Part shown: positions 626 through 24,256 of the stretch, one piece after another
Position numbering within the stretch: the first letter of the stretch is position 1
Layout: the number at the start of each line of letters is the position of its first letter
Source: a virus
IMG/VR virus record: IMGVR_UViG_3300048927_000205
Location: 1-26,713 of that record
Strand: one strand, 5' to 3'
Length of the DNA stretch: 26,713 nt
The notes under the pieces: model-generated
Told to the model about the DNA's origin: nothing
The model's database searches: none
Seen by the model: the letters and a program-made list of their open reading frames with translations, nothing else
Position numbers and translations under genes: made by a program

Positions 626-717
626 ACAACCTCCCATTCAATGACCAGTACGAGGAAGAGAGAGAAGCCGAAGAGATTATTAACGAAGTCGAACCGGAAG
701 AGCCGGACACAATTTAA
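622..717 (+). CDS. 31-residue acidic small protein
   Basis: A 31-codon frame starting with the ATGA overlap of the YopX stop and ending with TAA at 715-717, five bases before the next ATG. The product is very acidic (many Glu/Asp, for example QYEEEREAEEIINEVEPEEP), with no Cys and no hydrophobic segment. Position and coupling support expression. It could be a DNA-mimic-like or regulatory peptide, but nothing in the sequence proves a role. I do not recognise a family. Confidence 0.55.
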   Translation: MNNLPFNDQYEEEREAEEIINEVEPEEPDTI

Positions 718-722
718 GGAGT

Positions 723-1277
723 ATGAAAACAAAAACAATCAATCTCCAGGGAAAAGAATACGCGCAAGTTCAAGATCGCCTTATAGCTTTCCGCACGGAG
801 AATCCAAACGGTCTCATTGAGACGACTCCGACGATTCAACCAGACGGGCAGATTCTATTCAAAGCTCGCATCCTCAAAGATAAAGAGAATCCAGCTTCAG
901 CAGAAGCATCGGGCCACGCACTCGGCACCAGCAAAGGACAGAAAGCTTTTGAGAAGTTGGAGACCATTGCTGTAGGTCGCGCCCTTGCTCTGCTCGGCTA
1001 CGCATCGAGCGGCGAGATCGCTTCTTCTGAAGAAATGGAAGAGTTCGAGGCATACAAGAAGCAGCAGCATGAAGAGCTGATACTTGAGAGCACGGAAAAG
1101 CTCACCGACTGTAGATCACTCGACGAGTTGAAGACTGCTTGGGCCGATTTACCAGTCGAAGCGAAGACCGCGCTTGAGAGCGTTAAGGAGGATATGAAAA
1201 AGAAGCTGTCGCAGGCAGTCAAACCAAAGGCAAAGAAGGAGGCAGAAGTTAAAAGCGATAGTCCTCTCGGCGTATGA
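723..1277 (+). CDS. Probable single-strand DNA annealing/recombination protein
   Basis: 184 residues. The N-terminal domain (about 1-105) has the pattern KEYAQVQDRLIAFR, a beta-strand region with FKARILKD, and the block ETIAVGRALALLGYAS at 80-95; this resembles a widespread phage family usually found beside recombination or ssDNA-binding genes, and the invariant VGRAL..LG helix recalls Rad52/Erf-like annealing proteins. A helical segment at about 120-160 (SLDELKTAWADLP) and a Lys-rich tail follow, as in the C-terminal region of several phage recombinases. It overlaps the YqaJ exonuclease gene by ATGA, which is the usual annealase-exonuclease pairing. The family call is from memory of motifs and neighbourhood, so annealing activity is an inference. 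The AAGGAG at 717-722 sits only one to two bases from the ATG, too close for a normal ribosome site. Confidence 0.65.
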   Translation: MKTKTINLQGKEYAQVQDRLIAFRTENPNGLIETTPTIQPDGQILFKARILKDKENPASAEASGHALGTSKGQKAFEKLETIAVGRALALLGYASSGEIASSEEMEEFEAYKKQQHEELILESTEKLTDCRSLDELKTAWADLPVEAKTALESVKEDMKKKLSQAVKPKAKKEAEVKSDSPLGV

Positions 1278-1879
1278 AGACTCTCAAATACGAGAACCGG
1301 GAGGAATGGCTTGCGGCGCGGCGCGGGAAGATCACAGGTACTCGACTCAAGGATATCGTAGTAAAACGCGGTACGGGGCGAAAATTGGGCTTCTACGAGC
1401 TTATAGCCGAGCGTCTTGCTATAGAGCCTGATTCAGAAGAAAACCCTATGGATCGCGGCCACCGCCTGGAAGAAGAGGCAATAGAGAGATTCAAAGAAGA
1501 AACGGGCAAGAAGGTCGATACCACTCTCAAAATCCTTCAGCGTGACGACAATCCGAACATGGCCTATTCCCCGGACGGGACGATAGGCAAGAAGGCAGAT
1601 GTGGAGGTGAAGTGTCTTTCATCGGCTCGCCACATCGAAGCTCTGCTCACTCAAAAGGTGCCGGATGAGTACGAGTTTCAAGTTCTTCAGGGATTCATTG
1701 TCAACGATGATCTAGAGACTCGGTACATCGTCTTCTACGATCCAAGGATTCCGATGAAGGATTACTTTGTGATCGAGGTTAAACGCGCGGACGTAGCACA
1801 GCAGATTGAAGAATATCTCGCATATGAACGCGCAGTGCTTCAGGAGGTCAATGACATTGTTGTGCAACTAAGCTTCTAG
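1274..1879 (+). CDS. YqaJ-type/lambda-like 5'-3' exonuclease
   Basis: A 201-residue PD-(D/E)XK nuclease of the YqaJ viral recombinase family, expected to resect double-stranded DNA ends so that the partner annealing protein can load. Visible motifs are the N-terminal EWLAARRGKITGT (11-23), GHRLEEEA with the G-x3-E pattern (62-69), SPDG with catalytic Asp101, EVK with Glu111 and Lys113, and the YEFQVLQ helix (133-139). Length and motif order are normal for the family. Its ATG overlaps the stop of the upstream gene, so the two proteins are probably made together. It may act in phage recombination, genome circularisation or repair. Confidence 0.92.
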   Translation: MKTLKYENREEWLAARRGKITGTRLKDIVVKRGTGRKLGFYELIAERLAIEPDSEENPMDRGHRLEEEAIERFKEETGKKVDTTLKILQRDDNPNMAYSPDGTIGKKADVEVKCLSSARHIEALLTQKVPDEYEFQVLQGFIVNDDLETRYIVFYDPRIPMKDYFVIEVKRADVAQQIEEYLAYERAVLQEVNDIVVQLSF

Positions 1880-1880
1880 T

Positions 1881-2141
1881 ATGGATATACCGGAAAACAT
1901 ACTAAGCCGAATTAGTACTCCCAAACCACACGCGCCCCGTACAGAGTGGGAGTCAACGATAGAACCCTTCTATCACAGAATAAATACTCCCGCTTCACTG
2001 AATAAGTACGGAGAGATGACCAGGGGAAGAATCGGGAAAGCACTTAAAGGGAAGTCAGCTATGGAGATCAGCAGACTCTTCAAGGACTGTTCCAAGGCTC
2101 GTTCGTTCGCGGGGTTGTTTAGATCGCTTACACACGTATGA
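1881..2141 (+). CDS. Small basic protein of unknown function
   Basis: 86 residues, starting one base after the exonuclease TAG and ending in an ATGA overlap with the next gene. The N-terminal half is Pro-rich with a Trp (PHAPRTEWEST); the C-terminal half is basic and helical (GRIGKALKGKSAMEISRLFKDC, counted as two shorter helices). No domain is recognised. Directly following the recombination pair, it could be a DNA-associated accessory factor, but this is only context. Confidence 0.65.
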   Translation: MDIPENILSRISTPKPHAPRTEWESTIEPFYHRINTPASLNKYGEMTRGRIGKALKGKSAMEISRLFKDCSKARSFAGLFRSLTHV

Positions 2142-2281
2142 AAGGACTATTGAAAACGTGGTGGCACTGCGTATGGAGGATGCACAAAGGACACCGCATG
2201 TGTCGTATCACGCATCCAGAAATTAACGGAGGTAATTATTGGGCGTGTTCATGCGAGGTATTCACCTATCACAATCTATGA
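2138..2281 (+). CDS. 47-residue Cys/His/Trp-rich small protein, possible zinc binder
   Basis: A 47-codon frame with ATGA overlaps at both ends (2138-2141 and 2278-2281), filling what would otherwise be a gap. The protein is rich in Trp, His and Cys: Cys11, Cys22, Cys37 and Cys39 plus several His. This pattern suits a small zinc-binding fold like those seen in many phage early regions. The family is not recognised. The double coupling is the main evidence that it is real. Confidence 0.6.
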   Translation: MKGLLKTWWHCVWRMHKGHRMCRITHPEINGGNYWACSCEVFTYHNL

Positions 2282-2565
2282 AACACACTCTCCAGCGAGA
2301 AAAGATGCTTACCGCTCTCAAAGGGAATGGCTGGGTATGTGTCGAAGAATTCTCAAAGCTCTTTATCGTGGACTATCGCCGTCGCCTGGTTGACATTCAA
2401 AGATTGGGCTACGAGCTAGAAAGCCAGCGCTGCACCCTCCACAGCTACCACAAGGGAGGGTCAAAGATGTGGCGGTTGATGAAGGAACCACAGAAGCAAG
2501 TTTTCTACGTGAAGCACCCCATTACCGGAGAAAAGATAACAACCGAGGAATATGCAGCTCTCTGA
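2278..2565 (+). CDS. Winged helix-turn-helix protein
   Basis: 95 residues from the ATG at 2278. A longer TTG start at 2239 is possible, but the ATG overlaps the preceding stop as ATGA, which is the rule here. Residues about 6-65 form a helix-turn-helix with wing: LTALKGNGWVCVEEFSKL, then YRRRLVDIQRLGYELE, then a beta hairpin ending in SKMWRL. This resembles small phage HTH proteins that read a DNA site or act as transcription regulators. A short beta-rich tail follows (VFYVKHPITGEKI). It is the only clear candidate for a DNA-binding regulator in this arm. The target is unknown. Confidence 0.7.
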   Translation: MKHTLQREKMLTALKGNGWVCVEEFSKLFIVDYRRRLVDIQRLGYELESQRCTLHSYHKGGSKMWRLMKEPQKQVFYVKHPITGEKITTEEYAAL

Positions 2566-2860
2566 TTTACTAGAAGCAGTGAAGGAACGGAATCTCACTA
2601 AAACGGCACTCGAAGAGTACCGAGATGAGATGACGCACCTCAATACCGCGCTTCACTTCGAGATGGCGGAACTGGAGAAGGAAGAAGCTCTTTACATCTT
2701 CAACTTCACCCACGTTGGAGAGAAGAAGAGCCAGGCCGAAGCAGAACGCGCCTGGGACATCACCGAGAAAGGAAGAAGGCAGATAGACGTGAATCGTTCG
2801 CTCAAAGCTCTTGCAAAGGAACTCGACAGTCTGAAGTCTCGTCTCTACTCGATTTACTAA
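2552..2860 (+). CDS. Helical/coiled-coil small phage protein
   Basis: 102 residues, almost wholly helical and charged, with heptad-like Leu spacing in the first 50 residues and again in LKALAKELDSLKSRLY. It overlaps the preceding gene by 14 bases. The central segment KSQAEAERAWDITEKGRRQ is a pattern I have seen in uncharacterised phage proteins. No enzymatic motif is visible. It may be a small oligomerising accessory protein. Confidence 0.7.
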   Translation: MQLSDLLEAVKERNLTKTALEEYRDEMTHLNTALHFEMAELEKEEALYIFNFTHVGEKKSQAEAERAWDITEKGRRQIDVNRSLKALAKELDSLKSRLYSIY

Positions 2861-2872
2861 TCACACAACAAC

Positions 2873-3079
2873 ATGAACGTAAAATACGAACACATAGGAA
2901 TCGCGCTGGGGGTCTTCTTAGCGGTGTCTGGAATCATATTCTGTGTGAACACTCTACTTCCACAGTATGATTATTTCGAGATTGAATGTACTACGGACAC
3001 TATAAACACTAATGCTGATCTTTGGTGTCAGCCAAAGAAAGGAGACCTGTCCCACACATTCTACGCCAACAAGATATGA
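2873..3079 (+). CDS. Small single-pass membrane protein
   Basis: 68 residues with one membrane helix at about 9-31 (IALGVFLAVSGIIFCVNTLL) and a 35-residue polar segment with two Cys (Cys39 and Cys52) that would lie outside the membrane if the N-terminus is inside. The start is preceded by an A/C-rich leader (CTAATCACACAACAAC) and no Shine-Dalgarno sequence. The stop overlaps the next ATG. It could be an exclusion or envelope-associated early protein, but no family is recognised. Confidence 0.65.
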   Translation: MNVKYEHIGIALGVFLAVSGIIFCVNTLLPQYDYFEIECTTDTINTNADLWCQPKKGDLSHTFYANKI

Positions 3080-3198
3080 ACTACCGCGCCCTCTCCGTAA
3101 AAGAAGAACGAGTAAAGCCACAGTACCTTCACACACGGAATCTGATCCCCCGGAGAATCAAACAATTACTAGAAATGGGCTTTATATGGCTTGATTGA
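3076..3198 (+). CDS. 40-residue basic small protein
   Basis: A 40-codon frame starting in the ATGA overlap at 3076-3079 and ending with TGA at 3196-3198, one base before the next ATG. The product is basic, with a helical RNLIPRRIKQLLEMGFIWLD end. No domain is recognised. Tight coupling on both sides supports it being translated. Confidence 0.55.
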   Translation: MNYRALSVKEERVKPQYLHTRNLIPRRIKQLLEMGFIWLD

Positions 3199-3199
3199 T

Positions 3200-3448
3200 A
3201 TGACACCCGCTGATGTACAAGAATTTGAAGTGTTATTCCCGAGGGGCAAGATGCATAAATGGATATCTGATTTGATCTCTCGCCGCGAACAGCAGGCCGT
3301 GGAGAAGGAGCGCGAGCGGATTGCGAGTTTGATTAACGCAGAAATTGAAGCCTATAAAACAATGCCAGAGGTTCAAGAGTATGCGCTGAATGCACGGATT
3401 TTTGCGCTCTCCGATCTCCGTACTCACATTACTCAGCCTAAAACATAA
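3200..3448 (+). CDS. Helical small protein of unknown function
   Basis: 82 residues from ATG 3200; a TTG at 3191 is in frame but overlaps the previous gene, so the ATG one base after that stop is preferred. Residues 20-50 are a charged helix (HKWISDLISRREQQAVEKER) followed by ERIASLINAEIEAYK; this resembles uncharacterised phage proteins with an E-K-E-R-I-x-x-L-I helix. No catalytic motif is seen. Confidence 0.65.
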   Translation: MTPADVQEFEVLFPRGKMHKWISDLISRREQQAVEKERERIASLINAEIEAYKTMPEVQEYALNARIFALSDLRTHITQPKT

Positions 3449-3452
3449 AAAC

Positions 3453-3572
3453 ATGAACAACAACATAGACCACAAAGAACCCGAATACATGCGTGACTGG
3501 ACATTCTTCGCGCCTGTAGATGAGAGAAAGCCGAGAGGAGTTAAGCAGTTTCTTCTAAAGCTGTTGGTATGA
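3453..3572 (+). CDS. 39-residue small protein
   Basis: The ATG at 3453 follows an A-rich leader (CCTAAAACATAAAAAC), and the TGA overlaps the next start as ATGA at 3569-3572. The N-terminus is polar and acidic (NNNIDHKEPEYMRDW) and the C-terminus is a short basic amphipathic helix (GVKQFLLKLLV). An in-frame ATG at 3390 lies inside the preceding gene and is unlikely to be used. The function is unknown. Confidence 0.5.
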   Translation: MNNNIDHKEPEYMRDWTFFAPVDERKPRGVKQFLLKLLV

Positions 3573-4033
3573 ACACACCTTGCTGCGATAAGTGCGTGCT
3601 GCGATGTCGGTGTCCTGATCGTGAGCATCATCCTTGGAAGTGCATTAATACTGACTGTGAATGTCATCGCACCTCGGCTACGACAGAGATCGAGAACTCA
3701 CCGCAGAAAAAAAATTTAGACCGTAACTTCAATCTCATTCAAGACGCTGCCGCGCTTTCGTCGAGTCCTATTCCGTATGTGGAAGAGAAGCCGCAGACCT
3801 CTTGGGAGGAGGAGTTCGAGGAAGAAAGTCCGCTTGCTTTCTCGGGACGTGATTGGGCTAAAGCCTTCATTACCAAAGTAGTCGCCCAAACCCGTAACGA
3901 GACCTACCGTCAGGCGGCGGAGGATGTGTGTAGCTTCTTAGAAACGATACGAAAGCCAAATGGACTCTGCAATGGTCGATGCATACACGTAGAAGATTTT
4001 GAAGCGGCCCGCGCTCTTAAGCCTAAAGAATGA
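3569..4033 (+). CDS. Protein with N-terminal Cys-rich (zinc-binding) segment
   Basis: 154 residues. The first 33 contain Cys5, Cys6, Cys9, Cys13, Cys15, Cys25, Cys30, Cys32 and His20, 21 and 33, a dense metal-binding-like cluster. A polar linker (35-90, with the acidic stretch WEEEFEEE) and a helical C-terminal region (about 93-150, RDWAKAFITKVVAQTRNETY) follow, with two more Cys in NGLCNGRCIH. The ends overlap both neighbours by ATGA or four bases. It may be a multi-domain early protein that binds nucleic acid or host protein through the zinc segment. This is inferred from composition only. Confidence 0.65.
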   Translation: MNTPCCDKCVLRCRCPDREHHPWKCINTDCECHRTSATTEIENSPQKKNLDRNFNLIQDAAALSSSPIPYVEEKPQTSWEEEFEEESPLAFSGRDWAKAFITKVVAQTRNETYRQAAEDVCSFLETIRKPNGLCNGRCIHVEDFEAARALKPKE

Positions 4034-4404
4034 GTATGAGAATCCAACAAGCTATAGAGAGTGCGATTAAGGGAGGGTACAACCTTCGTGGAAATTACAA
4101 GAACGACGAAGGACTCGGATTCCCTGAATGGAAATACGATAGCTCGTATATCTACTTCTACCAAACACGTTTAGGTTTTGGCGGAGATCCGGGTCGTGCA
4201 AAGTGGACGATGCCTTTTGAGGTTATCCTTCTCGATACCGACTTCTGGCGTGCGCTTGGGAGGGGGCTCGGGTGGGAGAAGTACGAAGATGAAATGAGTT
4301 TAAATACAACTCTCCGACATCACTATCTTGAGCAATGGCACAGATTTATCGACCATCTCGCCACAGGAAAGAGCATCGAATCCTTCTTTGACGAACTAAA
4401 ATAA
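4030..4404 (+). CDS. Conserved-looking phage hypothetical protein
   Basis: 124 residues, aromatic-rich (SSYIYFYQTRLGFG, DTDFWRALGRGLGW). The pattern of an N-terminal IQQAIESAIKGGY helix, a short beta region, then W-x-x-ALG-x-GLGW and a C-terminal HRFIDHLATGKSIESFF helix is one I associate with an uncharacterised phage family that sits among early genes. The predicted fold is alpha/beta. Residue FFDELK ends the protein six bases before the next ATG. No activity can be assigned. Confidence 0.7.
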   Translation: MSMRIQQAIESAIKGGYNLRGNYKNDEGLGFPEWKYDSSYIYFYQTRLGFGGDPGRAKWTMPFEVILLDTDFWRALGRGLGWEKYEDEMSLNTTLRHHYLEQWHRFIDHLATGKSIESFFDELK

Positions 4405-4410
4405 TATCCT

Positions 4411-4647
4411 ATGTCGAAACAAACTGAACAGGAGAAGGGATGGGAGTTTCAAGTGCATCTGTTAGTGCGCGGCTTGGCTACCGAAAAGAAAAGCGCACTG
4501 ATAGAACTGATCCGCAAAGAACGTGAAGAGGCGTATAGGTTGGGAAGGAAGGAAAAGAAGGGTGAAATTATTAAAATGCTACATGAAGACGGAAATCATA
4601 TTGGAGCCAATCTTGTGGCCCGCGACACAGGGAGCTTAGCAAATTAA
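4411..4647 (+). CDS. Small charged helical protein
   Basis: 78 residues, dominated by Lys, Glu and Arg, with a long helix at about 25-55 (KKSALIELIRKEREEAYRLG) and a C-terminal LHEDGNHIGANLVARD segment. It starts after AATAATATCCT with no Shine-Dalgarno site. No domain is recognised. Confidence 0.6.
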   Translation: MSKQTEQEKGWEFQVHLLVRGLATEKKSALIELIRKEREEAYRLGRKEKKGEIIKMLHEDGNHIGANLVARDTGSLAN

Positions 4648-4658
4648 TTGAGTTGGAT

Positions 4659-4874
4659 ATGATATTCGGAGATTGCCCATACGAAGATTGCGATGGAACG
4701 CACGCGCTCGGTGTGCCCGATCAGACACCGAAGTTTGGGAAAGAGAAATGCGAGAAATGCGGACGCGAATACTGGCTTTACTATTCTCGCTTTGAGCCAA
4801 CGGCGTACACACTCGAACAGTTCGCGCAGAAGTTCCGCGTGGACGAAGCAAATAAAACAATCACAGAGATATGA
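4659..4874 (+). CDS. Small zinc-ribbon-like protein
   Basis: 71 residues from ATG 4659 (a TTG at 4653 is the alternative). Two Cys pairs, Cys6-x4-Cys11 and Cys31-x2-Cys34, give a zinc-ribbon pattern, followed by an aromatic strand (REYWLYYSRF) and a helix. The same C-x4-C ... C-x2-C spacing recurs in the minus-strand gene at 23977-24225. The stop overlaps the next ATG. The likely role is nucleic-acid or protein binding, unproven. Confidence 0.6.
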   Translation: MIFGDCPYEDCDGTHALGVPDQTPKFGKEKCEKCGREYWLYYSRFEPTAYTLEQFAQKFRVDEANKTITEI

Positions 4875-5182
4875 AATCCCCCACCACCCGAAAGGTGCGG
4901 AAGGTGAAGCAGCTCGTATTCAAACGGAGATTCGTCGCTCATTATGAGAAAGGATTTGTATCGGCTGGGCATTTTTCCGTTGAGGATGCTCTGAAATCCT
5001 CGTTGTTAAAGAAAGGGTATGTTGTCAGCGGATTGACGAGCCGCGAGGTTATTCAGGTAACTTGTAATATCGCACGGGCAAATATTCCTCTTGAAGAGCG
5101 CGAGAATTTGCAGAAGCAAATAGACGGAATACCGCCAACGAATACCTACCACCTCAAAGAGAAGCGCGTAACAAAAAACTAA
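4871..5182 (+). CDS. Small basic protein of unknown function
   Basis: 103 residues starting in an ATGA overlap. The N-terminus is strongly basic (TTRKVRKVKQLVFKRRF), and an alpha/beta region follows with VEDALKSSLLKKGY and the motif EVIQVTCNIARANIP. It could bind nucleic acid. No family is recognised. Only one base separates its stop from the next small ORF. Confidence 0.6.
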   Translation: MKSPTTRKVRKVKQLVFKRRFVAHYEKGFVSAGHFSVEDALKSSLLKKGYVVSGLTSREVIQVTCNIARANIPLEERENLQKQIDGIPPTNTYHLKEKRVTKN

Positions 5183-5183
5183 T

Positions 5184-5285
5184 ATGGAACATCTAATATT
5201 TCCTATCTTTGCAGTAGCTTGTTATTACCTAGGTTTGTTCATCGGCATGTCTTCTAAGGAAGAGGATATGACCCGTACCACTTGA
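5184..5285 (+). CDS. 33-residue putative membrane peptide at the convergent arm junction
   Basis: ATG at 5184, one base after the previous TAA, with TGA at 5283-5285. The first 23 residues are hydrophobic (LIFPIFAVACYYLGLFIGM) and a short polar tail follows. Its last 32 bases overlap the 3' end of the convergent lysozyme-like gene on the minus strand. Coupling and composition favour a real one-helix peptide. There is no homology to support it. Confidence 0.45.
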   Translation: MEHLIFPIFAVACYYLGLFIGMSSKEEDMTRTT

Positions 5286-5625
5286 TCGTAACTCTTCCGC
5301 AATTCCACCAGTCGGTCCAACCTTTCGTTTGCAATATGTATTCGGCTATCTGCTTCTGTAGTTCATCGTCTTTAATATTTTCCTCAGTGGCACCAAACTG
5401 TTTTCCATAGTAGAGCCAGGTCGGCATTTGAAAACTCACATACCCATACGAGTATTGACCATTGGTATCTAAGATGCGCGGGATGTTCGTCGGATTCTCA
5501 CATTCGTGTAAATGCTGTACCCAAATATCTTGGGGAGTCGTTGTAGCGACTTCTGCGATCTGTGGCGTTAAGACACTCGGCGTGAAGGTTGCCGACATCA
5601 TCAAACTAATTGCGAGCGGCAACAT
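5254..5625 (-). CDS. Exported lysozyme/transglycosylase-like protein
   Basis: 123 residues: a hydrophobic N-terminus (about 1-24, signal peptide or short anchor) and a compact domain whose pattern HECENP ... ILDTNGQYSYGYVSFQMPTW resembles soluble lytic transglycosylase/Rpf-like lysozyme folds, in which a Glu near the start of the domain (Glu41 or Glu43 here) is catalytic and the YSYG..SFQ segment lines the cleft. Cys42 and the Cys in WWNCG near the end could form a disulfide, fitting an exported enzyme. It is the last gene of the leftward operon, after the holin candidate and a second lysozyme-like gene. Role: peptidoglycan cleavage for lysis or entry; the exact enzyme class is inferred. Confidence 0.7.
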   Translation of the reverse strand: MLPLAISLMMSATFTPSVLTPQIAEVATTTPQDIWVQHLHECENPTNIPRILDTNGQYSYGYVSFQMPTWLYYGKQFGATEENIKDDELQKQIAEYILQTKGWTDWWNCGRVTIKWYGSYPLP

Positions 5626-5647
5626 GGCCGCGAGAGGTTAGTGCCTT

Positions 5648-5884
5648 TTAATATTTAGGTGCGCTCCAGCGTCCGAGACTTATCTTTCGCATCGCGCCCC
5701 AGATTGAAACAGCAGCAGCAATAACAATTCCGCCATTGGTTATGATGGTGAGGATGTCATTCTGAATCGAAGCGACAATCGTATTATCCACTCCCAATAG
5801 AACAGCGACAGCGGCAAGACCTTTAAGAAATAGTGAGACGTTCTCAGGATTCGCGGAACTCGCAAGCCATGATGGTATGTTCAT
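5648..5884 (-). CDS. Putative holin
   Basis: 78 residues with two hydrophobic segments, about 20-32 (LFLKGLAAVAVLLG) and about 45-65 (TIITNGGIVIAAAVSIWGAM), separated by a short polar loop, and a basic C-terminus (RKISLGRW). Size, topology and the position between two wall-degrading enzymes suit a holin that permeabilises the membrane for lysis. Holins have little sequence conservation, so the call rests on topology and context. Confidence 0.65.
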   Translation of the reverse strand: MNIPSWLASSANPENVSLFLKGLAAVAVLLGVDNTIVASIQNDILTIITNGGIVIAAAVSIWGAMRKISLGRWSAPKY

Positions 5885-5935
5885 ATGTCATTCACGATAC
5901 CAAGGAATTTGGAATATCCACATGGTTATGCACAG

Positions 5936-6466
5936 CTAGAGATACGCTTTATATGAGCCATTTTTATACGCTACCCAGAGATTCCGCTGCCCCCTCTTCC
6001 AGTATTGGCACATGAGGCGGACTGCTTTCTCGGGATTGTTCATCGCCTCTCCGTCAAAGCCTCCGCTGATCTCCTTTCCGTGGTAGTAGTCGTTCCATTG
6101 GCAAAGACCCCAATCAGTACTACCGAGTACCTGCTTGCCGTTCTGCACGTAGTAGTTCCGGCGTACTGCTTTTGTGTTGTATTGGGATTCGCCGCCGATG
6201 GTGGCACATAGGGTGTTCTTCTGTTCGAGGTCTAGTCCTTCATCGTCGCAAATCACTCGAATAGAGTGCTTTATATTGGCCGTGGTGTCCCAAAGGAGCT
6301 GTGGGGCCGGGGCGGGGGGTAAAGTCGCGTCCTGGGGCGTTTTAGGCGGTTCTACGGGGTCGGAAATGGGCTCATGCGGGTTATAGATTCCCCCTTTTCT
6401 GAAGAAGAAGGCCGTAGCCCCGATTCCCGCTGCGATGATCGCTCCCATGATCGAGAAGAAGTTCAT
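5936..6466 (-). CDS. Membrane-anchored lytic transglycosylase/lysozyme-like protein
   Basis: 176 residues: an N-terminal membrane anchor (6-22, IMGAIIAAGIGATAFFF), a Pro-rich linker (28-56), then a lysozyme-fold domain with the catalytic-type motif ATIGGESQYN (Glu93) and the supporting STDWGLCQWN motif (116-125), as in phage lytic transglycosylases and tape-associated lysozymes. The C-terminal part (AVRLMCQYWKRG) is helical. The anchor and linker would place the enzyme on the wall side of the membrane. It sits between the papain-like peptidase and the holin candidate. Role: peptidoglycan cleavage; anchored rather than freely secreted. Confidence 0.78.
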   Translation of the reverse strand: MNFFSIMGAIIAAGIGATAFFFRKGGIYNPHEPISDPVEPPKTPQDATLPPAPAPQLLWDTTANIKHSIRVICDDEGLDLEQKNTLCATIGGESQYNTKAVRRNYYVQNGKQVLGSTDWGLCQWNDYYHGKEISGGFDGEAMNNPEKAVRLMCQYWKRGQRNLWVAYKNGSYKAYL

Positions 6467-6470
6467 GGGA

Positions 6471-7286
6471 TTAACTAAGCCCGAGAATTCTCCAAAAGAG
6501 AGAAACGAGCTTCTGAGCTATCGTGCTGTCGATCCGCTGCGGCACTTCCCCTTCCCGGAGCTTGTCGATCACATAAGCCCCGGTGCCTTTGATCGCCATG
6601 AGCCGGTTAAAGTCGGCTCGATTGAAATAGCAGAATCCTCCGTCTCCGTAGTTCTTGCCGATCCACGGCTTTCCGATGAGATAGGGGACGTTGTTGATCG
6701 TCTTCCAGCCTTTGATATTCCAGCAGTGCCAGGACGCAGAGCCGAGGAGCCAGGTCAGAGATGCGCGGATGATGCCCTCGATAGGACGCATGAACTCAGG
6801 GAACCAGGGCGTACCCACAGAAACGGCACGATGCTCCAACGTTCCTAAGACAAGCGCGGCCCGTACCGCATCGAACCAGTCGGTGACACCGCCCTTGTCG
6901 ATATCAGGAACTACTGCGAAGTACGCGGGATGATCGGGATGGAGTTTCACCGCTGCTTTCATAGCGGATCGTTGGTCGGTGCCGCCATTCGCGTTTGCGT
7001 GGGTTATTGCTTCGATCTCCATTGGGTTTGAGAGATGCCCGTCTTCGTCAGTGAGAATGTCTGCGACGGAATAATCAGTGCATGCATAGGGCATTGGAGG
7101 AACGGGTGGAGTGAACAGATTGCATCCAGCATTTTGATCCGGCATCCAGAGTCCACGATCGGTCGAGTAGTTGTCCGGGAGAGTTGGGACAAGAGCGCCG
7201 AGTCTGTGCTTGTCGATGTTTTTCGTTTTGAAGAAGCTGAAATCTCGATGATCGTGTTTGTTAGGTTGCGTGCCAGATCGAATCAT
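6471..7286 (-). CDS. Papain-like (C1A-type) cysteine peptidase
   Basis: 271 residues. Matches the papain fold by motif order: a short N-terminal HDHRDFSF region, LPDNYSTDRGLWMPDQNAGC with a Gln (51) in the oxyanion position, PYACTDYS carrying the likely nucleophile Cys69, SASWHCWNIKGW with the catalytic His near 186, and GKPWIGKNYGDGGFCYF near 205-222, which corresponds to the Asn/Trp block NSWG..WG..GY in the family. There is no signal peptide or propeptide of classical length. It overlaps the upstream membrane gene by ATGA and lies in the lysis cassette, so it may cleave cell-wall peptides, host surface proteins or virion proteins. The fold is fairly sure, the substrate unknown. Confidence 0.78.
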   Translation of the reverse strand: MIRSGTQPNKHDHRDFSFFKTKNIDKHRLGALVPTLPDNYSTDRGLWMPDQNAGCNLFTPPVPPMPYACTDYSVADILTDEDGHLSNPMEIEAITHANANGGTDQRSAMKAAVKLHPDHPAYFAVVPDIDKGGVTDWFDAVRAALVLGTLEHRAVSVGTPWFPEFMRPIEGIIRASLTWLLGSASWHCWNIKGWKTINNVPYLIGKPWIGKNYGDGGFCYFNRADFNRLMAIKGTGAYVIDKLREGEVPQRIDSTIAQKLVSLFWRILGLS

Positions 7287-7555
7287 AGATGGGAAATTAT
7301 TGATACGAGCGAGGTTCCTTGCGTGAATCCGAGACCGATGACAATTCCACCGACAAGGATGAGAGCCATGATGAGCTTTCGTACTTTGCCGTTGGTGAAA
7401 GCGACTTGAGTTTCGATGCGTGCGAGAGAGTCGCGGGTGTCTTTTTCAAACTCCCCCATGCGGAGTTCCAAGACGTTCTGAAGGTTGCCGATCTTTTCCA
7501 GAACTAGAGCGTTCTTTCCATCGATCTCCCCATCTGTATATTTTCGGTCACTCAT
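7283..7555 (-). CDS. Coiled-coil protein with C-terminal membrane helix (XhlA-like lysis protein)
   Basis: 90 residues from the ATG at 7555 (an in-frame GTG two codons earlier is the alternative). A coiled-coil region at about 15-58 (ALVLEKIGNLQNVLELRMGE, then RDSLARIETQVAF) is followed by a single membrane helix near 64-80 (LIMALILVGGIVIGLGF). This arrangement matches XhlA-type proteins and other small phage lysis accessory proteins. Overlap by ATGA with the peptidase gene supports a shared lysis or envelope role. Confidence 0.7.
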   Translation of the reverse strand: MSDRKYTDGEIDGKNALVLEKIGNLQNVLELRMGEFEKDTRDSLARIETQVAFTNGKVRKLIMALILVGGIVIGLGFTQGTSLVSIISHL

Positions 7556-7637
7556 AGTCACAGCGACAGCGATAGCCTAATTGCAGGCGTTCGCAGTTGT
7601 GGAAGAGGATGTCGCGGATCTTCTGAAAGAAAGTCAT
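7548..7637 (-). CDS. 29-residue Cys-containing small ORF
   Basis: An ATG three bases after the tail-fibre stop opens a 29-codon frame ending in TGA at 7548-7550, which overlaps the next ATG by eight bases. The product is basic with three Cys (HNCERLQLGYRCRCDYE). It fills the only gap between the fibre and lysis genes. The pattern recalls very short phage peptides, but evidence is only position and composition. Confidence 0.4.
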   Translation of the reverse strand: MTFFQKIRDILFHNCERLQLGYRCRCDYE

Positions 7638-7639
7638 AG

Positions 7640-10600
7640 CTAGTTACAAGTCGCCAAACTTCCGGTATGAACTTTCCCGAAGACCGCTCCTGCCTGCGTA
7701 TAGACTTGAGTATATGTTGCTGGTCCCGATCCTACGTCCTTGATGATGATGCAGCCTCCCTTTGAGACGCTTTCAAGAAGAAGAGGAGTGGTTGAGGCGA
7801 CTGAGGTGTAGATATCGACGCTTCCCACAGGCGTAGAGGTTGCGAAACCAGTAGAACCCGTTGAGTTGAGCATCGTTATGACGTTCGTACCCGCGTCATC
7901 TCGGTCAATGAGGAGGTTTCCGGTCGGGAAGGTGATGCGGCTCTGATTATCCTGGGCCTTGAATTTGAGTTGTGCGCCGTCAGCACGAGTGATGTACTCC
8001 TCGACGTTCGTTCCTCTATCCCACAACTGAAGGTTTGCGGCAGGCGTTGAAGTTCCGATACCGAGGGCAGAGAGACCCGAGATGTTTGCACCGTTTTCGT
8101 CAAAGAGGAACGGAGTGGAAGAAGTGGCAAAAGTAGTGACGGTTTTAGTTCCGCTGTTCACGTCCTTGTATCCGTAGACAGAAGCACGTCCGCCTCCGTA
8201 GTTGTTCACTGCTGCGGCCATCGAAATTGAACCTCCTGTGTTGTTGTCGAAGGTGACGCCCCGGAGAGAAAGCTGCCCGCCGTTGAGAATGAATTGATTC
8301 GGAGAGTTTCCGACTGAATTAGCTCCGTTCATGAAGTCGCCGCCAATGATAGTAGTCTGCATGAATCCGCCTGAGTCAAGCGTCATGTAGTTGTAGCGAC
8401 CTATGACCGAAGCATTGGGATTCTCGAACTTCGGTGCAGTGAATGTGTTGTTGAGGTTTCCGTCCAGAAGGTGAATACCCGCGTCATCCCACACATCGTG
8501 ATCGAACGAGAGACCATCCGAGCCGTTTATTTCGGAGTAGAAGCAGTCGTTGTAGTTCGTGCTGCAGTCGGCATAGGTGTTCCCACGGAACCGGAACCCT
8601 TCACCGGAGTTGTTGGCAGATTCGATATGTACTGCCTGTTTGTTAGTGCCGAACCAGTTGTTGAGGATGTTTATATTCCAAGTATTCGCTTCTGTTCTCA
8701 GTCCCACATTCCCGAAATTACCTATGTCATTTCCTTCGATGACGGCTCCTTGTCCGCCGTTCGAACCTCCGAGCTGTATACCTACCTGCCCTGACCCTCC
8801 AGTACCGCGAATAGTACAGCCCTGTATACCCCACCCGGCATACAGATTGTTTATATCTGTTGCGTTGAGGATCGTGCTCGTTGCCGTTCCGGTCCAAGTG
8901 AGAACGACACCGGGAGAACATACTATCGTGCCCACTTTCCCCGCTGTGCTCATGCTCATTGGATTTGTACCCCAGGTGCTAGATGCGGAAATAATATATT
9001 TGGAACCATTCGGGGCCTGTGCATAGGCATTGTTGAATTTCGCTCCGAGGTCACTTCCCGGGAAATTTTGCACGTAGTAGGTCATTTCGAGAATCGAAGA
9101 GGAGGCTGTGGTGAAGTAGGTTGACGAGGAAATAATCATCTTCTGCGGAAGATACAGGCTCGTGGTTGTGGAGTTGTTGGCGAATCCTCCATAGGTTGAA
9201 GGAGTCCAAGGGAAACTGAATGAGTTTCCGCTTCCTGAAGTCGTTGACATCCACGCAATACCTCCGTTACTGAATGCAAGGACCTGACCAGGCGTAGCTG
9301 CTCCGTAGAGAGTTGACGTGGCGATTGAGGAGAGGACGCCGGTTGAGCTTGCGACTAGGACACCTTGACCGAAGTTCGAGAACTGAACGGTCGAAGTAGC
9401 AAGGAGAGAACCCCCGAGATAGGTAGAACCGACCACTGAAAGTTTCGATGCGGGAGAGGATGTGCCTATTCCCACATTCCCTGCACCAGTAAGAACCATT
9501 TGTATTGCATCCGTCGGTGTTGAGGCGGCGTTGTTTATGTACCAGTGCAGTTTGCTGTTCGCCTGCGTGGCGACAATTTCAGCCGCCATCACAGCATCCC
9601 AGTTCGTTGAGTCGGTGAGGAAGAATTTAGGCGCTCCGTTTACGTTAGATACTCTAAATGCGCCTGGCACCGTTCCCCATACTCCAGATGCCCCATTGGA
9701 GATGTGCAAGGGGCTGAGAGGATTTGCCGTACCTATCCCAACAAATCCATTGTTTGCAATGGAGATGCCGGGTGTACTGGTGGCGTAGAGATCGGTCGAG
9801 GTTCCGATGTACAGATTCCCTCCCATTGAGGAGAAGAGCCAGTGACGCTTGTTTGCTCCGCCTACCGCGTCAGAAAGGGCAATTGAGGGGCGCGTACCAG
9901 AGACTTGCGTGAGCCAGTTTGGCGTCGTGGTGCCTATACCGATGTTGCCCATCGTTCCAAGGCCGGTGTTCGTTATACGCATCGCCTCCACGCCGCCTGT
10001 ACCGAAGCGCAGATAGGCATTTGGATTTGTGGAAGAGGCAGTTTCTAGTGAGAATGAACCATCGCTGTTATAGAGGTAACTACCGTTCTGATCTCCGAGG
10101 AATCCTCCCATAGTATTACCCGAAGAATTTTGTCCGAGGTCGGTGTAGTAAGAGGGAAGCGCGGTTGTTTTATCTGTGTTTATGAGTAGGTCTGCCGAGG
10201 CTGAGGTTCCAGCGTTGACGTTGCGAACGGTGATGCCTGCATAGCCGTTCTGATTGCCATTGAAGTCGGCAATCTCATTAGGAAGATATGCCGATGGAGA
10301 GCTGCTGCCCACTTGGAGATATCCGCTCACGGTGACGCTGCCGCTTGGGATGAGCGCAGGAGTGGCGAGATTCCCGACGTTCAACTGATCGAAGTATGAG
10401 GTTGAGGAAGCGATGAAGCCTTGCGTGTCGCTGATCGCGGTAGAGGTGGCCGAGGTCTTAGTTGCGCCGAAGGTTCCGGGAGTAAATGAATAACTAGCCC
10501 CGCTCGCAGAGCTAGTAGTTGAGACCCATGCAATTCCGCCATTTGAATAGCCGAGTACTTGGCCGGGTGTGGCGGCCCCATAGAGTGAACTGGTCGCCTG

Positions 10601-11062
10601 GCTAGTAGGCACTGCTCCGTTTGTTACTGCCCCGAGAACTCCGGCGTTTATCGTTGCGAGACCGAGAGAACCTGTTGTGCCTACATGCGTAAAACTGCCT
10701 GTGAGGCCGTTATTAGCGGTGAGGGTGGAGGTAGATACGCCGTACACCCCTGCCGCGCCATTTGAGACAAGAATCTGGCTCGAAGTGGGCTGAGAGGTAG
10801 TAGAAAGACCCCAATAGGTGACGGTGGAGTTTGACCCGCCTACGAGTGCGCCGAGGGTGCCTGAGATAGTGAAGGGACCGGAGATCGAGTAGGTGGTTGT
10901 AGCGACCGAGCTGAGAGCAGCGGTGCCGTTACCATAGAGGAGCCTGGAGGATGTGAAAGTCGAGTTGCCTGTGCCGCCTGAAGGGACGTTTTGAACAGGA
11001 GTCGCAGCGTATGCGATTCCGGCGAAGGTGAGTATTGAAAGAGCGATAAGTATAAATTTCAT
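7640..11062 (-). CDS. Large tail fibre/spike with signal peptide and beta-helix domain
   Basis: 1140 residues. A signal peptide (1-20, ending AYA before ATPV) is unusual for a virion protein. The body is Ser/Thr/Gly/Ala-rich, with GIGT-x-x-P-type repeats near residues 373, 441, 529 and 1000, which are typical of trimeric fibre shafts. Two related blocks of about 65 residues begin near 160 and 585 (both start LYGAATPGQVL). Residues about 650-970 contain a right-handed beta-helix pattern (IQGCTIRGTGG, VIEGNDIGNFGNVGL, FRGNTYADC, LRGVTFDNN), as in pectate-lyase-like spikes that bind or cleave surface polysaccharide. The end has a Cys pair (GGCIIIKD ... ATCN). It follows the coiled-coil fibre gene by ten bases with a CTAATTACAACAAC leader. 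Role: receptor recognition. No autocleavage chaperone domain is seen. Confidence 0.82.
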   Translation of the reverse strand: MKFILIALSILTFAGIAYAATPVQNVPSGGTGNSTFTSSRLLYGNGTAALSSVATTTYSISGPFTISGTLGALVGGSNSTVTYWGLSTTSQPTSSQILVSNGAAGVYGVSTSTLTANNGLTGSFTHVGTTGSLGLATINAGVLGAVTNGAVPTSQATSSLYGAATPGQVLGYSNGGIAWVSTTSSASGASYSFTPGTFGATKTSATSTAISDTQGFIASSTSYFDQLNVGNLATPALIPSGSVTVSGYLQVGSSSPSAYLPNEIADFNGNQNGYAGITVRNVNAGTSASADLLINTDKTTALPSYYTDLGQNSSGNTMGGFLGDQNGSYLYNSDGSFSLETASSTNPNAYLRFGTGGVEAMRITNTGLGTMGNIGIGTTTPNWLTQVSGTRPSIALSDAVGGANKRHWLFSSMGGNLYIGTSTDLYATSTPGISIANNGFVGIGTANPLSPLHISNGASGVWGTVPGAFRVSNVNGAPKFFLTDSTNWDAVMAAEIVATQANSKLHWYINNAASTPTDAIQMVLTGAGNVGIGTSSPASKLSVVGSTYLGGSLLATSTVQFSNFGQGVLVASSTGVLSSIATSTLYGAATPGQVLAFSNGGIAWMSTTSGSGNSFSFPWTPSTYGGFANNSTTTSLYLPQKMIISSSTYFTTASSSILEMTYYVQNFPGSDLGAKFNNAYAQAPNGSKYIISASSTWGTNPMSMSTAGKVGTIVCSPGVVLTWTGTATSTILNATDINNLYAGWGIQGCTIRGTGGSGQVGIQLGGSNGGQGAVIEGNDIGNFGNVGLRTEANTWNINILNNWFGTNKQAVHIESANNSGEGFRFRGNTYADCSTNYNDCFYSEINGSDGLSFDHDVWDDAGIHLLDGNLNNTFTAPKFENPNASVIGRYNYMTLDSGGFMQTTIIGGDFMNGANSVGNSPNQFILNGGQLSLRGVTFDNNTGGSISMAAAVNNYGGGRASVYGYKDVNSGTKTVTTFATSSTPFLFDENGANISGLSALGIGTSTPAANLQLWDRGTNVEEYITRADGAQLKFKAQDNQSRITFPTGNLLIDRDDAGTNVITMLNSTGSTGFATSTPVGSVDIYTSVASTTPLLLESVSKGGCIIIKDVGSGPATYTQVYTQAGAVFGKVHTGSLATCN

Positions 11063-11072
11063 GTTGTTGTAA

Positions 11073-11939
11073 TTAGCCTAGTCCATAAATGTCCCCTCCA
11101 GCGCCGACAGCATCATCGAGAGTTGCGGTGGTGCCCGAGATTGTTACGCCGTGTCCGTTGCGGTATGCATTGCCGTTTACTACAACGAGGGTAGGAGCAG
11201 ATGCGAAAGTGAATACTTTGTTTGAATCATCGACAGTTCCCGTTGCTGCGAGGACGGACATCGAGCCGCCAGAAGCAGATGCACTAATCGTTATGTCGTT
11301 CCTACCGCTCGCATAGGCGTAGGAAAGGGAAATACCCGTGCCTGCGACAAGATTGAGAGTTTGAGCGGTGAGAAGTTTCTTAGAGCCATCTACATAGAGT
11401 CCGATACCCTTTGCTCCCCCGCGCCCTCCTGTGGGTCTGAGTTCGATTTGTTTAACTTTTGTCTGAAGTTCCGGCAGACCTTCGACAGCCTTTGAGACAA
11501 TTAGAGCCTGAGTGTCCTGATTGATCTTGCGAACGATCTCATCGGCTGTTAATGGTGCAGGAAGTGTCGGAATCTTCGCGGCGAGTTCTGCAATGCGTTG
11601 TTCAAACGGGCCGAGGTCTGTTGAATCTGGAATGAGAGCTTTGAGTACTGCCATCTGCTCGTCGATGTATCGCATTGTGGTGCGAGCATCGGAACGAGAG
11701 TTGTTCGTGGCGTCGCTTGATACTTGTTCGATGCGCTTCTGAAGATTCTCGATGAGAGCTGACGCTTCCTGCTGCGCCTTTTGAACATTTGAGCTCAATT
11801 CACCCTTATGAGCCTGAATCTGCTCCTGAAGTTTGGCGTGGAAGGTTGAAAGTTGATCAAGCAATCCTTTGATAAGCAGCCCCACATCCTCTTTAGAAGC
11901 GAGTCCGTTCAGGAAGTCTTGGAATGAAGGTGTAGCCAT
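11073..11939 (-). CDS. Coiled-coil tail fibre/baseplate-type protein
   Basis: 288 residues: a helical, Gln/Glu-rich coiled coil over about 25-125 (LQEQIQAHKGELSSNVQKAQ and following), more helix to about 165, a glycine linker (GGRGGAKGIG near 172), then a beta-rich C-terminal head ending in VVVNGNAYRNGHGVTISGTT, a pattern common at the ends of phage fibre and receptor-binding proteins. It probably forms a trimeric stalk with a beta tip and works with the large fibre immediately downstream. Leader CTAAACTAACACC, no Shine-Dalgarno sequence. The promoter of the hidden plus-strand gene lies just upstream, facing away. Confidence 0.75.
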   Translation of the reverse strand: MATPSFQDFLNGLASKEDVGLLIKGLLDQLSTFHAKLQEQIQAHKGELSSNVQKAQQEASALIENLQKRIEQVSSDATNNSRSDARTTMRYIDEQMAVLKALIPDSTDLGPFEQRIAELAAKIPTLPAPLTADEIVRKINQDTQALIVSKAVEGLPELQTKVKQIELRPTGGRGGAKGIGLYVDGSKKLLTAQTLNLVAGTGISLSYAYASGRNDITISASASGGSMSVLAATGTVDDSNKVFTFASAPTLVVVNGNAYRNGHGVTISGTTATLDDAVGAGGDIYGLG

Positions 11940-11957: not shown

Positions 11958-11984
11958 TTGACAGGATTCTAGCCTGGGTATAAA
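11958..11984 (+). promoter_or_regulatory. Sigma70-like promoter for the plus-strand ORF at 11993
   Basis: A perfect -35 hexamer TTGACA (11958-11963) is followed after 15 bases by TATAAA (11979-11984). Predicted transcription starts at about 11991, one or two bases before the ATG at 11993, so the message would be nearly leaderless. It points against the direction of all surrounding structural genes. The spacer is two bases shorter than optimal, which lowers certainty. Confidence 0.5.
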
Positions 11985-11992
11985 GGGAAGGT

Positions 11993-12145
11993 ATGAACAT
12001 CTTATTTGTGGCAGTCATATTCTTCATTGTGATGCCTTTGCTGGTACTGTTTGCCGAATGGCTTGAGTCGCGCCCGCTCGAACGAGCTGTGAAGAGATAT
12101 TTGCCACGTTTTTGGCATTTCTTGCGACCGCACCAACCACTCTAG
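11993..12145 (+). CDS. Hidden 50-residue membrane protein, antisense to the structural operon
   Basis: An ATG frame of 50 codons on the strand opposite to all neighbours, ending in TAG at 12143-12145. The first 21 residues form a clear membrane helix (MNILFVAVIFFIVMPLLVLF), followed by an amphipathic basic tail rich in Arg, Trp, His and Pro (RAVKRYLPRFWHFLRPHQPL). A promoter-like TTGACA/TATAAA pair sits directly upstream. Its last 122 bases overlap the 3' end of the putative ejection protein gene on the other strand. Composition, start, promoter and intergenic 5' part together argue it is real. It could be an independently expressed moron-type protein (for example exclusion or envelope modification). 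No family is recognised. Confidence 0.55.
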   Translation: MNILFVAVIFFIVMPLLVLFAEWLESRPLERAVKRYLPRFWHFLRPHQPL

Positions 12146-13493
12146 GAGAGAAGAGTGGCAGCAATAGAAGACTCATCGGATTAGAAGCCACCGCCCCTAC
12201 TCCACCCACGCTGCCAACGGCAACGGCACTTCGGATATATCCGGGAAGGAATCTCTGAAACTCGCCTCCGGCCAGGAGGGAGAGGTAGTCAACTCCGCTT
12301 CGCTTTCCAAGCTCTCGGATGATGTTTACATACTCATCCTTATTCTCTTTGAAGATGTTATCGAGTCGAGTAACTGAAGACTGAATCTGTGTGGGCGTCT
12401 GTGCGCTCGAACCAAGCACGTTTCCTATCTCATCAAGCACTGCTCGATTCTTTGAATAGTTCTCGTTGATCGTGGAAAGTTCAGGTGCGGTCTCTTTTAT
12501 TACATCGCCTATCGCGTTATGAATCTTTCCTATGATCGCGCTCGATTTTGACACGCCGGAGCTGTCGAAATTCTTCAGGGCATTGACTCGCTGATTGAGT
12601 GCTTGAAGTCCTTTTGGAGAAAAGTCATCCCATGTACTGACAGTGTCTAGTGCCTTCTGGACTGCTGACTGCTCAGAACTGTTTACAATCGCGCTCTTAC
12701 TGAAGTCTGCAACAATTCCGTCACTGCTAGCCGCAGTAGGAACTTTGAATTGAGTTGTAACGTCCTTAGCTTTCTGAAGAAGCTGCTGGGCGATTGAACT
12801 TGTATCTTGAGCTGCTGTTGAACTGAGTGCGCTCGAAGCCGCGCTGTGTTCCGCATTGAGGTCGTTATAAAGGCTTTGAAGAGACGCGTCGGCTTTTGCT
12901 CGTATCTGAGCGACCGACATTCCGAGTCCTTCCTTAGCAGCTACAGGATTAGCAGCGGCCTGCTCGATTGCGGCTTTTGGAACTCCTGATGTAACTGAGG
13001 CGACAGACGGTGCGAGTTTTTTGGTGGCGTAGCTGATGCCTTTTCCGAGTAGATTGAAGACAGCTCCAGTTGCCGCGCTCGCTGCCCCTCCTTTGAGAGC
13101 GTCTGTGCCGACTTGGGGAAGGCTATTGCCTTGCTCAAGAGAAGCTCCGGCTGCGGAAGTTGCTCCTAAACCTCCGTATTGAGCTGCTGCGCCTACTAAC
13201 GATGCAGGAGCGGCTGCGCCGATACTCACCGGCAGCGATCCGGCTTCGAGTATTCCCCCGGCCATCTTTGGCACGTTCACAGGGATGTTAGGATTCTTCC
13301 CTTGTGCAACCCGTCCAATGTTCGCAATCGCTGTTCCGAGTCCTTCACCAATCGCACCAGTGCCCGGAAAGATCGAGGTAGCCACGTTAGCTGCTTTCGA
13401 GAGAAAGTCACCGCTCGGAGCGGGTGGCGGAGTAGGTGCGGAAGGATGAACTCCGACGACTGTATATTTCCCTTTTAGGTCGTTGATCGTCAT
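12024..13493 (-). CDS. Putative internal virion/DNA ejection protein
   Basis: 489 residues, Ala/Ser/Gly-rich and mainly helical. A Pro-rich N-terminus (APTPPPAPSGD near 19-30) precedes long hydrophobic Ala/Gly segments (about 80-125) that could insert in membranes, a helical coiled region (about 190-400) and another hydrophobic stretch near the end (VAVGSVGGVGAVASNPM, then LLLLPLF). Large Ala-rich helical proteins in pairs, next to tail genes of short-tailed phages, are usually internal core or ejection proteins that help DNA cross the envelope. It overlaps the next upstream gene by ATGA. The function is inferred from composition and position; its last 40 codons are antisense to the small ORF at 11993. 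Confidence 0.6.
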   Translation of the reverse strand: MTINDLKGKYTVVGVHPSAPTPPPAPSGDFLSKAANVATSIFPGTGAIGEGLGTAIANIGRVAQGKNPNIPVNVPKMAGGILEAGSLPVSIGAAAPASLVGAAAQYGGLGATSAAGASLEQGNSLPQVGTDALKGGAASAATGAVFNLLGKGISYATKKLAPSVASVTSGVPKAAIEQAAANPVAAKEGLGMSVAQIRAKADASLQSLYNDLNAEHSAASSALSSTAAQDTSSIAQQLLQKAKDVTTQFKVPTAASSDGIVADFSKSAIVNSSEQSAVQKALDTVSTWDDFSPKGLQALNQRVNALKNFDSSGVSKSSAIIGKIHNAIGDVIKETAPELSTINENYSKNRAVLDEIGNVLGSSAQTPTQIQSSVTRLDNIFKENKDEYVNIIRELGKRSGVDYLSLLAGGEFQRFLPGYIRSAVAVGSVGGVGAVASNPMSLLLLPLFSPRVVGAVARNAKNVANISSQLVRAGATQAIRQTVPAKASQ

Positions 13494-21846: not shown

Positions 21847-23720
21847 TGTGCTGTTGGCTGAGCTGCCTGAGTCTGAATTCCCGCGAGGGTGAGGAACTGC
21901 TTTTGTATGTCATTCGGCTCTCCGGCGAGGTCTTTGTAGCTCAGCGTCTCGGTAATCTTCCCTGCAGAGGACTGAGGCATGTTGAGTTGACTTAGATCAA
22001 TAGGTTCGAGTCCACTGGATTCGATGATCTGATTGAAGAGTTTGGCGATAGGGGCACTCTGGAGGATGTACGGGTTCGTCATGATCTTGTTGAATACATT
22101 GACGAGCTTGTCAGTCATTGCCATGAGGTCCTTGCGCTTGCCCGCAACGTCTATCTGCACACCAAACGACTTATCAGCAAACTCTCCCTTGAGTATCTCA
22201 AGGAGATGGATGTTTCCTTTCTTCTGAAGTTGCTCGAGCGTCTGCTGCTTAAATGCGGCAATGGACTGAGGATTGAGTGCGGTGAATTCTTTAGTGAGAA
22301 CCTTATCGATGATGTACTCGTTTACCTTCTTGGTAACAAGCGAATCTATGACGAAGTGCAATTCATCGAGAGAGAGCTTGGCGAGGAATTTAGTACCCTT
22401 GGTAATCTCCTTATCGATGTATGGAATGATCCAGTCGCGGTAAATCTCTTCGATGAACTTGGCTCGCTGGCCGCGTCTGCGCTCGTGGAGTCCGCTACCC
22501 TGTGCGACCGTTCTTTCCTGTCCTCTGAATGTCTGGCCGGAAGGCTGCTCCTTTCCGAGAAGTGGATCGAATGCGGAGCTTGCGAGCTGGGCGTGCGCCT
22601 GCCATTCATCAATGCTGCGATCAAGGAGCTGCACATTCGCGGGGGCGGCGGTCGGGACCTGGTGAATCTGCTTCCCGTCCTCAATGGTAGTGATTTCAAG
22701 ATTCTCCATGTCCTGAATCTTGTTCCGTTCGGTATAACTTGCGTCATCGGTATAGAGAGGAATCTTTGAGGCAGACTCAAGCATGTTCTGCTTGTGGATG
22801 GTGAGAAAATTCGTCCATACCTGGGGATGGAGGAGAGCTTCACCCGCTCCTCTGCCGAGTGCTCGATTGTGAACCTTCTTTGAAGTGAAGAACTTAATCG
22901 TGTGCTCGTCGTCTTCTTTGCGGTAGAGCGTTACGCCCTGACGATCCCCATTTTTATCCTGATAGAACGCGATGATTTGGCACTGGTAGTACCAGTCGTC
23001 CATATTGTCGTTATCAAGAAGGTAGTGTTCGGGCAGCGTCCCTTTAACTATGTAGACTTCTATCTGTTTGCCTGGTGTTTGATTCTTTTTTGTCTGCATT
23101 AAACCATCGGGAGACTTGTTCGTATCCGCGAGTGTAATGAGTTCATCAATGCTGACAGTCGCACCGTTCTTTTCATCGCCCCAGCCGTACTGACTCATCT
23201 TGCGAAGGCTGTCGGGAGCGAAGTTGTGCTTGAAGCCGAGCGGGGCGCCGAGAAGGTTTGTTTGGTCTCCGAACGCTAAGGTCTGGAACTGCAATACTTC
23301 AGGCTTTGGAGTGTCGGTCTTCTGTACTAAAACACCTCCGTAATCAAGATCGGTCTCGGTTATCTCATCAAATAGCTCGTCGAGGTCGTATTCTTTTGTA
23401 AAGACTTCATCGTGGTACTTCTTCACAAGAAATGAGAGTGCGCGGTCATCATCCTCTTCGACAAACGGCACTACATCCTTCACTTCTATATCTTCGGACC
23501 AGTATGAAAGGTTTAACATCGGTTCCATGATGTTCTTAAACGCGCGAGTCATCGTCTGCCAGGCATTAGAGCCGGTGAAGAAGACTCCGTTCTTCAGGTG
23601 AAAGATGAGCTGGACGTGATTGCGGAGATTCCAGGACCAGTTGTCCCCTACCTGAATCTCTTCTGTTTCAAACTTACTCTCCTCACTCTTAACGTATGCG
23701 TAAATGGAAGGCTCGATCAT
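21843..23720 (-). CDS. Portal protein
   Basis: 625 residues, the size of podovirus-type portals. Characteristic regions: an N-terminal helical domain with NLRNHVQLIFHLKNG and AFKNIMEPML, a wing region, YQCQIIAFYQDKNGDRQGVT, the stem-like SIDEWQAHAQLASSAFDPLL, followed by GKEQPSGQTFRGQERTVAQG near 385-405, a conserved loop-and-helix in this family, and a helical C-terminus (KEFTALNPQSIAAFKQQTLE). It forms the dodecameric DNA channel at the capsid vertex and docks terminase and adaptor. It overlaps the upstream and downstream genes by ATGA. Confidence 0.85.
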   Translation of the reverse strand: MIEPSIYAYVKSEESKFETEEIQVGDNWSWNLRNHVQLIFHLKNGVFFTGSNAWQTMTRAFKNIMEPMLNLSYWSEDIEVKDVVPFVEEDDDRALSFLVKKYHDEVFTKEYDLDELFDEITETDLDYGGVLVQKTDTPKPEVLQFQTLAFGDQTNLLGAPLGFKHNFAPDSLRKMSQYGWGDEKNGATVSIDELITLADTNKSPDGLMQTKKNQTPGKQIEVYIVKGTLPEHYLLDNDNMDDWYYQCQIIAFYQDKNGDRQGVTLYRKEDDEHTIKFFTSKKVHNRALGRGAGEALLHPQVWTNFLTIHKQNMLESASKIPLYTDDASYTERNKIQDMENLEITTIEDGKQIHQVPTAAPANVQLLDRSIDEWQAHAQLASSAFDPLLGKEQPSGQTFRGQERTVAQGSGLHERRRGQRAKFIEEIYRDWIIPYIDKEITKGTKFLAKLSLDELHFVIDSLVTKKVNEYIIDKVLTKEFTALNPQSIAAFKQQTLEQLQKKGNIHLLEILKGEFADKSFGVQIDVAGKRKDLMAMTDKLVNVFNKIMTNPYILQSAPIAKLFNQIIESSGLEPIDLSQLNMPQSSAGKITETLSYKDLAGEPNDIQKQFLTLAGIQTQAAQPTAQ

Positions 23721-24228: not shown

Positions 24229-24256
24229 TGCATAGTACCACTCAGGATTTTGTCAA
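24229..24256 (-). promoter_or_regulatory. Weak promoter-like site inside the SET gene end
   Basis: On the minus strand a perfect TTGACA (24256-24251) is followed after 16 bases by TATGCA (24234-24229). A start would fall at about the ATG at 24225, giving a leaderless message. The -35 hexamer is within coding sequence (Leu-Thr codons of the SET protein) and the -10 is poor, so chance is likely. Confidence 0.2.

Follow-up and report, generated by a model that had tools for sequence, protein, structure and literature searches.

A candidate small membrane-protein gene antisense to the 3′-end of a phage ejection-protein gene, with a possible role in exclusion

Gene content around the opposite-strand ORF

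The window, i.e., the whole 26,713-nt stretch of DNA that was analysed, is organised in two arms, a plus-strand arm (~206–5182) and a long minus-strand arm that carries the terminase, portal, capsid, ejection, tail and lysis genes (Table 1). Within the minus-strand arm, an ATG in the 84-nt gap between the ejection gene and the gene downstream of it opens a plus-strand frame of 50 codons. The frame runs into the 3′-end of the ejection gene on the opposite strand, and their overlap of 122 nt is the same figure as that given by an earlier, sequence-only reading of this DNA. That reading had also called the frame the only plausible plus-strand gene of the minus-strand arm, which holds in the sense that the other, longer plus-strand ORFs (e.g., 22206–22769) lie wholly within minus-strand genes. 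The strong membrane helix that it described is borne out by two predictions: the best 19-residue Kyte-Doolittle mean of the ORF product is 3.19, and AlphaFold2 places a helix at residues 2–26 (mean pLDDT >90 over residues 1–20), followed by a low-confidence second helix at residues 29–44. The 50-aa protein had no match in viral contigs, a phage collection, Pfam or PHROGs, nor among the viral fold models of BFVD.

Table 1. Features of the window discussed in the text.
Feature	Position	Strand	Basis or remark
Source record IMGVR_UViG_3300048927_000205	1 to 26,713		26.7-kb virus record
YopX-family gene and YqaJ recombinase gene	206–625 and 1274–1879	+	
Lysis genes	5254–7561		Minus-strand arm
1140-aa tail fibre/spike-like protein	7640–11062	−	Composition and place; no family match
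288-aa gene next after the ejection gene, with N-terminal coiled coil	11073–11939	−	Probable tail part
Promoter-like pair TTGACA-15-TATAAA	11958–11984	+	Not above chance, not conserved
Shine-Dalgarno-like AAAGGGAAGG just before the ORF ATG	11982–11991	+	
50-codon ORF, predicted single-pass membrane protein with basic tail	11993–12145	+	Candidate exclusion gene
Block conserved in L002	12002–12070	+	ORF residues 4–26: helix and EW[LI]ES
489-aa ejection (internal virion) protein gene	12024–13493	−	Similarity to L063 protein, then phiM5 protein
SET-domain protein of the packaging module	24242–24655	−	PF00856, E 9.7e-7

The assignment of the 489-aa product as a putative ejection protein is sound, although it is made through sequence likeness in two steps. 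The protein matches one from a bacterial genome (L063; E = 1e-20), and over 82% of its length the L063 protein in turn shares ~30% identity with the internal virion protein of phage phiM5, which has been detected in particles. The hosts are probably tiny bacteria of Patescibacteria type, judging from genome size and protein character. The portal family is present in 2 of 21 genomes from a family whose genome sizes are 0.5–1.2 Mb, one of the two being the metagenome-assembled genome nzgw467. Elsewhere in the minus-strand arm, the SET-domain protein is 50–58% identical in two relatives (L042 and L040). The late operon of another relative holds an opposite-strand ORF of 209 aa whose product has a hydrophobic segment at its N-terminus and also a coiled coil (L045, 10599–11228, minus strand).

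Promoter-like pair and translation start

Upstream of the ORF, TTGACA (11958–11963) and TATAAA (11979–11984) are separated by a 15-nt spacer and followed by GGGAAGGT and the ATG at 11993. These letters had been taken as the ORF's own promoter, which is possible but unsupported because the match is at chance level and is not conserved. Chance alone would give 0.37 matches of 11/12 with a spacer of 15–19 nt per window, given the window's own composition and counting both strands together, and no TTGACA/TATAAA pair is found at the aligned place in the close relative L002. Promoters usually have spacers of 16–18 nt, so that 15 nt falls outside the range, and the pair was not listed by a stricter scan with spacers of 16–18 nt. 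The leaderless message previously proposed has this assumed promoter as its sole basis and competes with the Shine-Dalgarno-like AAAGGGAAGG, and is likewise unsupported. The place in L002 that aligns with AAAGGGAAGG reads AGGAAGG, and lies there inside the antisense ORF. In this feature the ORF contrasts with the minus-strand late genes (starts at, e.g., 11062, 11939, 14890, 18819 and 19773), which mostly have no Shine-Dalgarno sequence. Their leaders are A/C-rich, often with CTAA and then CAAC or similar right before the ATG.

Conservation of the antisense frame

The search for close relatives gave a single one, L002 (IMGVR_UViG_3300002098_000145), with an ejection protein 58% identical to that of the window. 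At the same place it carries an antisense ORF of 55 codons (11540–11373, minus strand in L002), which overlaps the L002 ejection gene by 62 nt. The two antisense proteins share 44% identity across 34 residues (AVIFFIVMPLLVLFAEWLES aligned with AIILFIVTPLIVVSVEWIES). The start codon is not conserved, as L002 has no start at the window's ATG and its ORF opens 25 codons earlier, and neither is the C-terminal tail; the L002 ORF ends soon past the EW[LI]ES motif.

At third codon positions, identity between the two phages is near-random in the ejection gene (36% overall), and codon choice has almost reached saturation, with a retained fraction of 0.06. Over the last 15 ejection codons, 12 of the 15 third positions are identical, which is the highest of 469 codon windows (p = 2.2e-4), while just 9 of the 15 second positions are. 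The overlap is phased such that each third position of an ejection codon falls on the second position of an antisense codon. When synonymous codons were redrawn for the L002 ejection protein, the antisense likeness was matched in 1.5 of 10,000 trials (p = 1.5e-4). Random scattering of the 21 mismatches over the 69-nt conserved block left the antisense protein equally conserved in 0.6% of cases (p = 0.006) and the ejection frame equally conserved in 68% (p = 0.68). The third-position constraint, the synonymous-codon null and the outcome of mismatch scattering thus point to selection on the antisense protein rather than on the ejection frame, in tests that share one sequence pair and are not mutually independent. 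The sequence-only reading was to be given up if relatives had no homologous ORF, or if conservation followed from the minus-strand protein only; in this one pair, the ORF is present and the block is conserved in the antisense frame. A small minus-strand gene within the gap was considered and rejected, as the 24-aa frame of the window and the 41-aa frame of L002 do not align (frame p = 0.07).

As a background sample, 88 gaps of 40–300 nt between same-strand genes were taken from 17 records. In 30 of the 88, an ATG within the gap opens an antisense ORF of 24 codons or more, and the two most hydrophobic antisense ORFs of the sample are those of the window (3.19) and L002 (2.78). Weaker membrane ORFs occur at the same junction in two further relatives (L037, 39 aa; G429, about 26 aa), and are not counted as strong evidence because composition can yield such ORFs. 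The ejection-like genes of four others (L047, L038, G411 and G430) have no clear counterpart of the ORF. No close ejection homologue was found among 29 portal-based relatives or among relatives of the L002 portal.

These data bear on the possibility that the frame is open by accident and that its likeness to L002 has survived by luck from shared DNA, the A-rich leader and gap of the late strand reading as hydrophobic codons in the complement. Such an origin would be in keeping with the variable start codon, tail and promoter, with conservation that rests on a single sequence pair, with the weaker hydrophobic antisense ORFs of other gaps and with the many relatives, most of them in fact, that have no such ORF at this junction. 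It is nevertheless less likely than not in view of the third-position constraint and the frame tests (p = 0.006 to 1.5e-4), and of the top two hydrophobic ORFs of the 88 gaps coming from the same junction in two phages. On the evidence of the frame itself, its L002 counterpart, the codon-level selection signal and its position, the ORF is probably a real small gene.

That gene could also serve another purpose, as a small membrane protein acting in lysis timing, in membrane takeover or in host toxicity and expressed early from the plus strand. The coding evidence (third positions, codon null and mismatch scattering) would be the same, small membrane proteins of phages serve many roles, and holin-like genes are found elsewhere in the same arm. 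An alternative role of this kind is somewhat less likely than exclusion, however, as the ORF lies on the strand opposite the lysis genes and several kilobases away from them, and the P22 parallel discussed below favours exclusion. Least likely is a nucleic-acid element (a processing site, terminator or regulatory antisense RNA of the late transcript or DNA), which would suit a conserved block that runs across the ejection stop codon into the gap but has neither an Rfam match nor an unusual fold (z −0.63) to its credit, while the mismatches lie such that the antisense protein is better preserved than under random scattering. The antisense-RNA function once suggested for the transcript is not supported, given the same RNA results and a promoter that is at chance level and not conserved; the only terminator candidate found is a weak hairpin within the ORF (12102–12117).

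Proposed exclusion role and comparison with known systems

The product of P22 sieA blocks DNA injection by other phages. In P22, the injection protein gene 16 is followed after 22 bp by the convergent sieA with its promoter, and then by immI and the tailspike gene 9. The window has a comparable order of ejection gene, convergent membrane ORF and tail genes, and its ORF likewise lies directly downstream of an ejection-protein gene in convergent orientation. A small convergent membrane ORF also follows the ejection homologue at two more distant loci. Ejection-profile searches of genomes from one phylum and class yielded a single distant match, L063, in which the ejection stop codon is directly adjoined by a membrane ORF of 62 aa in convergent orientation; profile comparison of this ORF with that of the window detected no homology. 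In phiM5, the gene for a protein of 56 aa whose membrane segment is C-terminal lies convergent 30 bp past the internal virion protein gene (gene 32; L074, 1585–1755, minus strand), at the end of an operon that contains the integrase. Caulobacter phage RW was set aside: a convergent ORF does follow its homologous gene, but encodes no membrane protein.

Because of the P22 gene 16/sieA parallel and the convergent membrane ORFs of L063 and phiM5, an exclusion role is proposed. Provided that the ORF is a gene, the chances of such a role are about evenly balanced; the joint reading, a real gene encoding a minimal, SieA-like but unrelated exclusion protein, is the favoured one, though tentative, its function being judged from position and topology only. 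The lysogeny- or exclusion-type role of the sequence-only reading is to this extent reasonable on the exclusion side. Of the plus-arm proteins tested, none was recognisable as an integrase or a repressor, which counts against the proposal. The protein would be made in the infected or lysogenic cell and would reside in the cytoplasmic membrane, presumably as a single-pass inner-membrane protein with its short N-terminus outside and its basic tail inside, following the positive-inside rule. There it may stop incoming related phages from finishing DNA injection, by interfering with the conduit formed by their ejection proteins. It is quite improbable, as a specific claim, that the ORF is a blocker gene overprinted in antisense on the part of the ejection gene that encodes the C-terminus and directed at that same kind of ejection protein, but blocker and target gene would then be physically locked together and have to evolve jointly. 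If the proposal is correct, convergent injection-blocking membrane genes at ejection genes recur far outside the P22 group, reaching phages of an uncultured bacterial group, and their overlap with an opposite-strand late gene is the reason that annotation misses them. New cases could then be sought by a simple rule, namely to look where an ejection-protein gene ends for a small membrane ORF in convergent orientation.

Known SieA proteins are 162–164 residues long with three membrane segments, their types are sequence-diverse (<30% identical), and mutations that allow escape lie in the C-terminal regions of the ejection proteins gp16 and gp20 (PMC10883804). The window ORF, with 50 residues and one membrane helix, is much smaller; it overlaps the ejection gene where sieA stands 22 bp from gene 16, and no promoter is supported for it whereas that of sieA is annotated. 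Searches of Pfam, PHROGs and the phage collection returned no SieA match. Having neither SieA sequence nor three membrane segments, the ORF falls outside the SieA family, and likeness to SieA is put forward for function, as a hypothesis.

The HK97 protein gp15 is cited in PMC10883804 as a moron-encoded exclusion protein that blocks injection. The role proposed here is similar, namely a phage-encoded block on DNA injection by related phages, but a moron is a separate inserted gene, whereas the window ORF overlaps its neighbour by 122 nt. It has neither the terminator nor the clean insertion of a moron, and an own promoter is unsupported. Overlapping genes with exclusion activity have been described as gene 10 and olg1 of phage Fc02 (PMC9936078). 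The Fc02 pair, backed by transcript evidence, is located in the lysis-lysogeny region and not at an ejection gene, yet in both cases a phage gene of established or proposed exclusion function overlaps a gene on the opposite strand.
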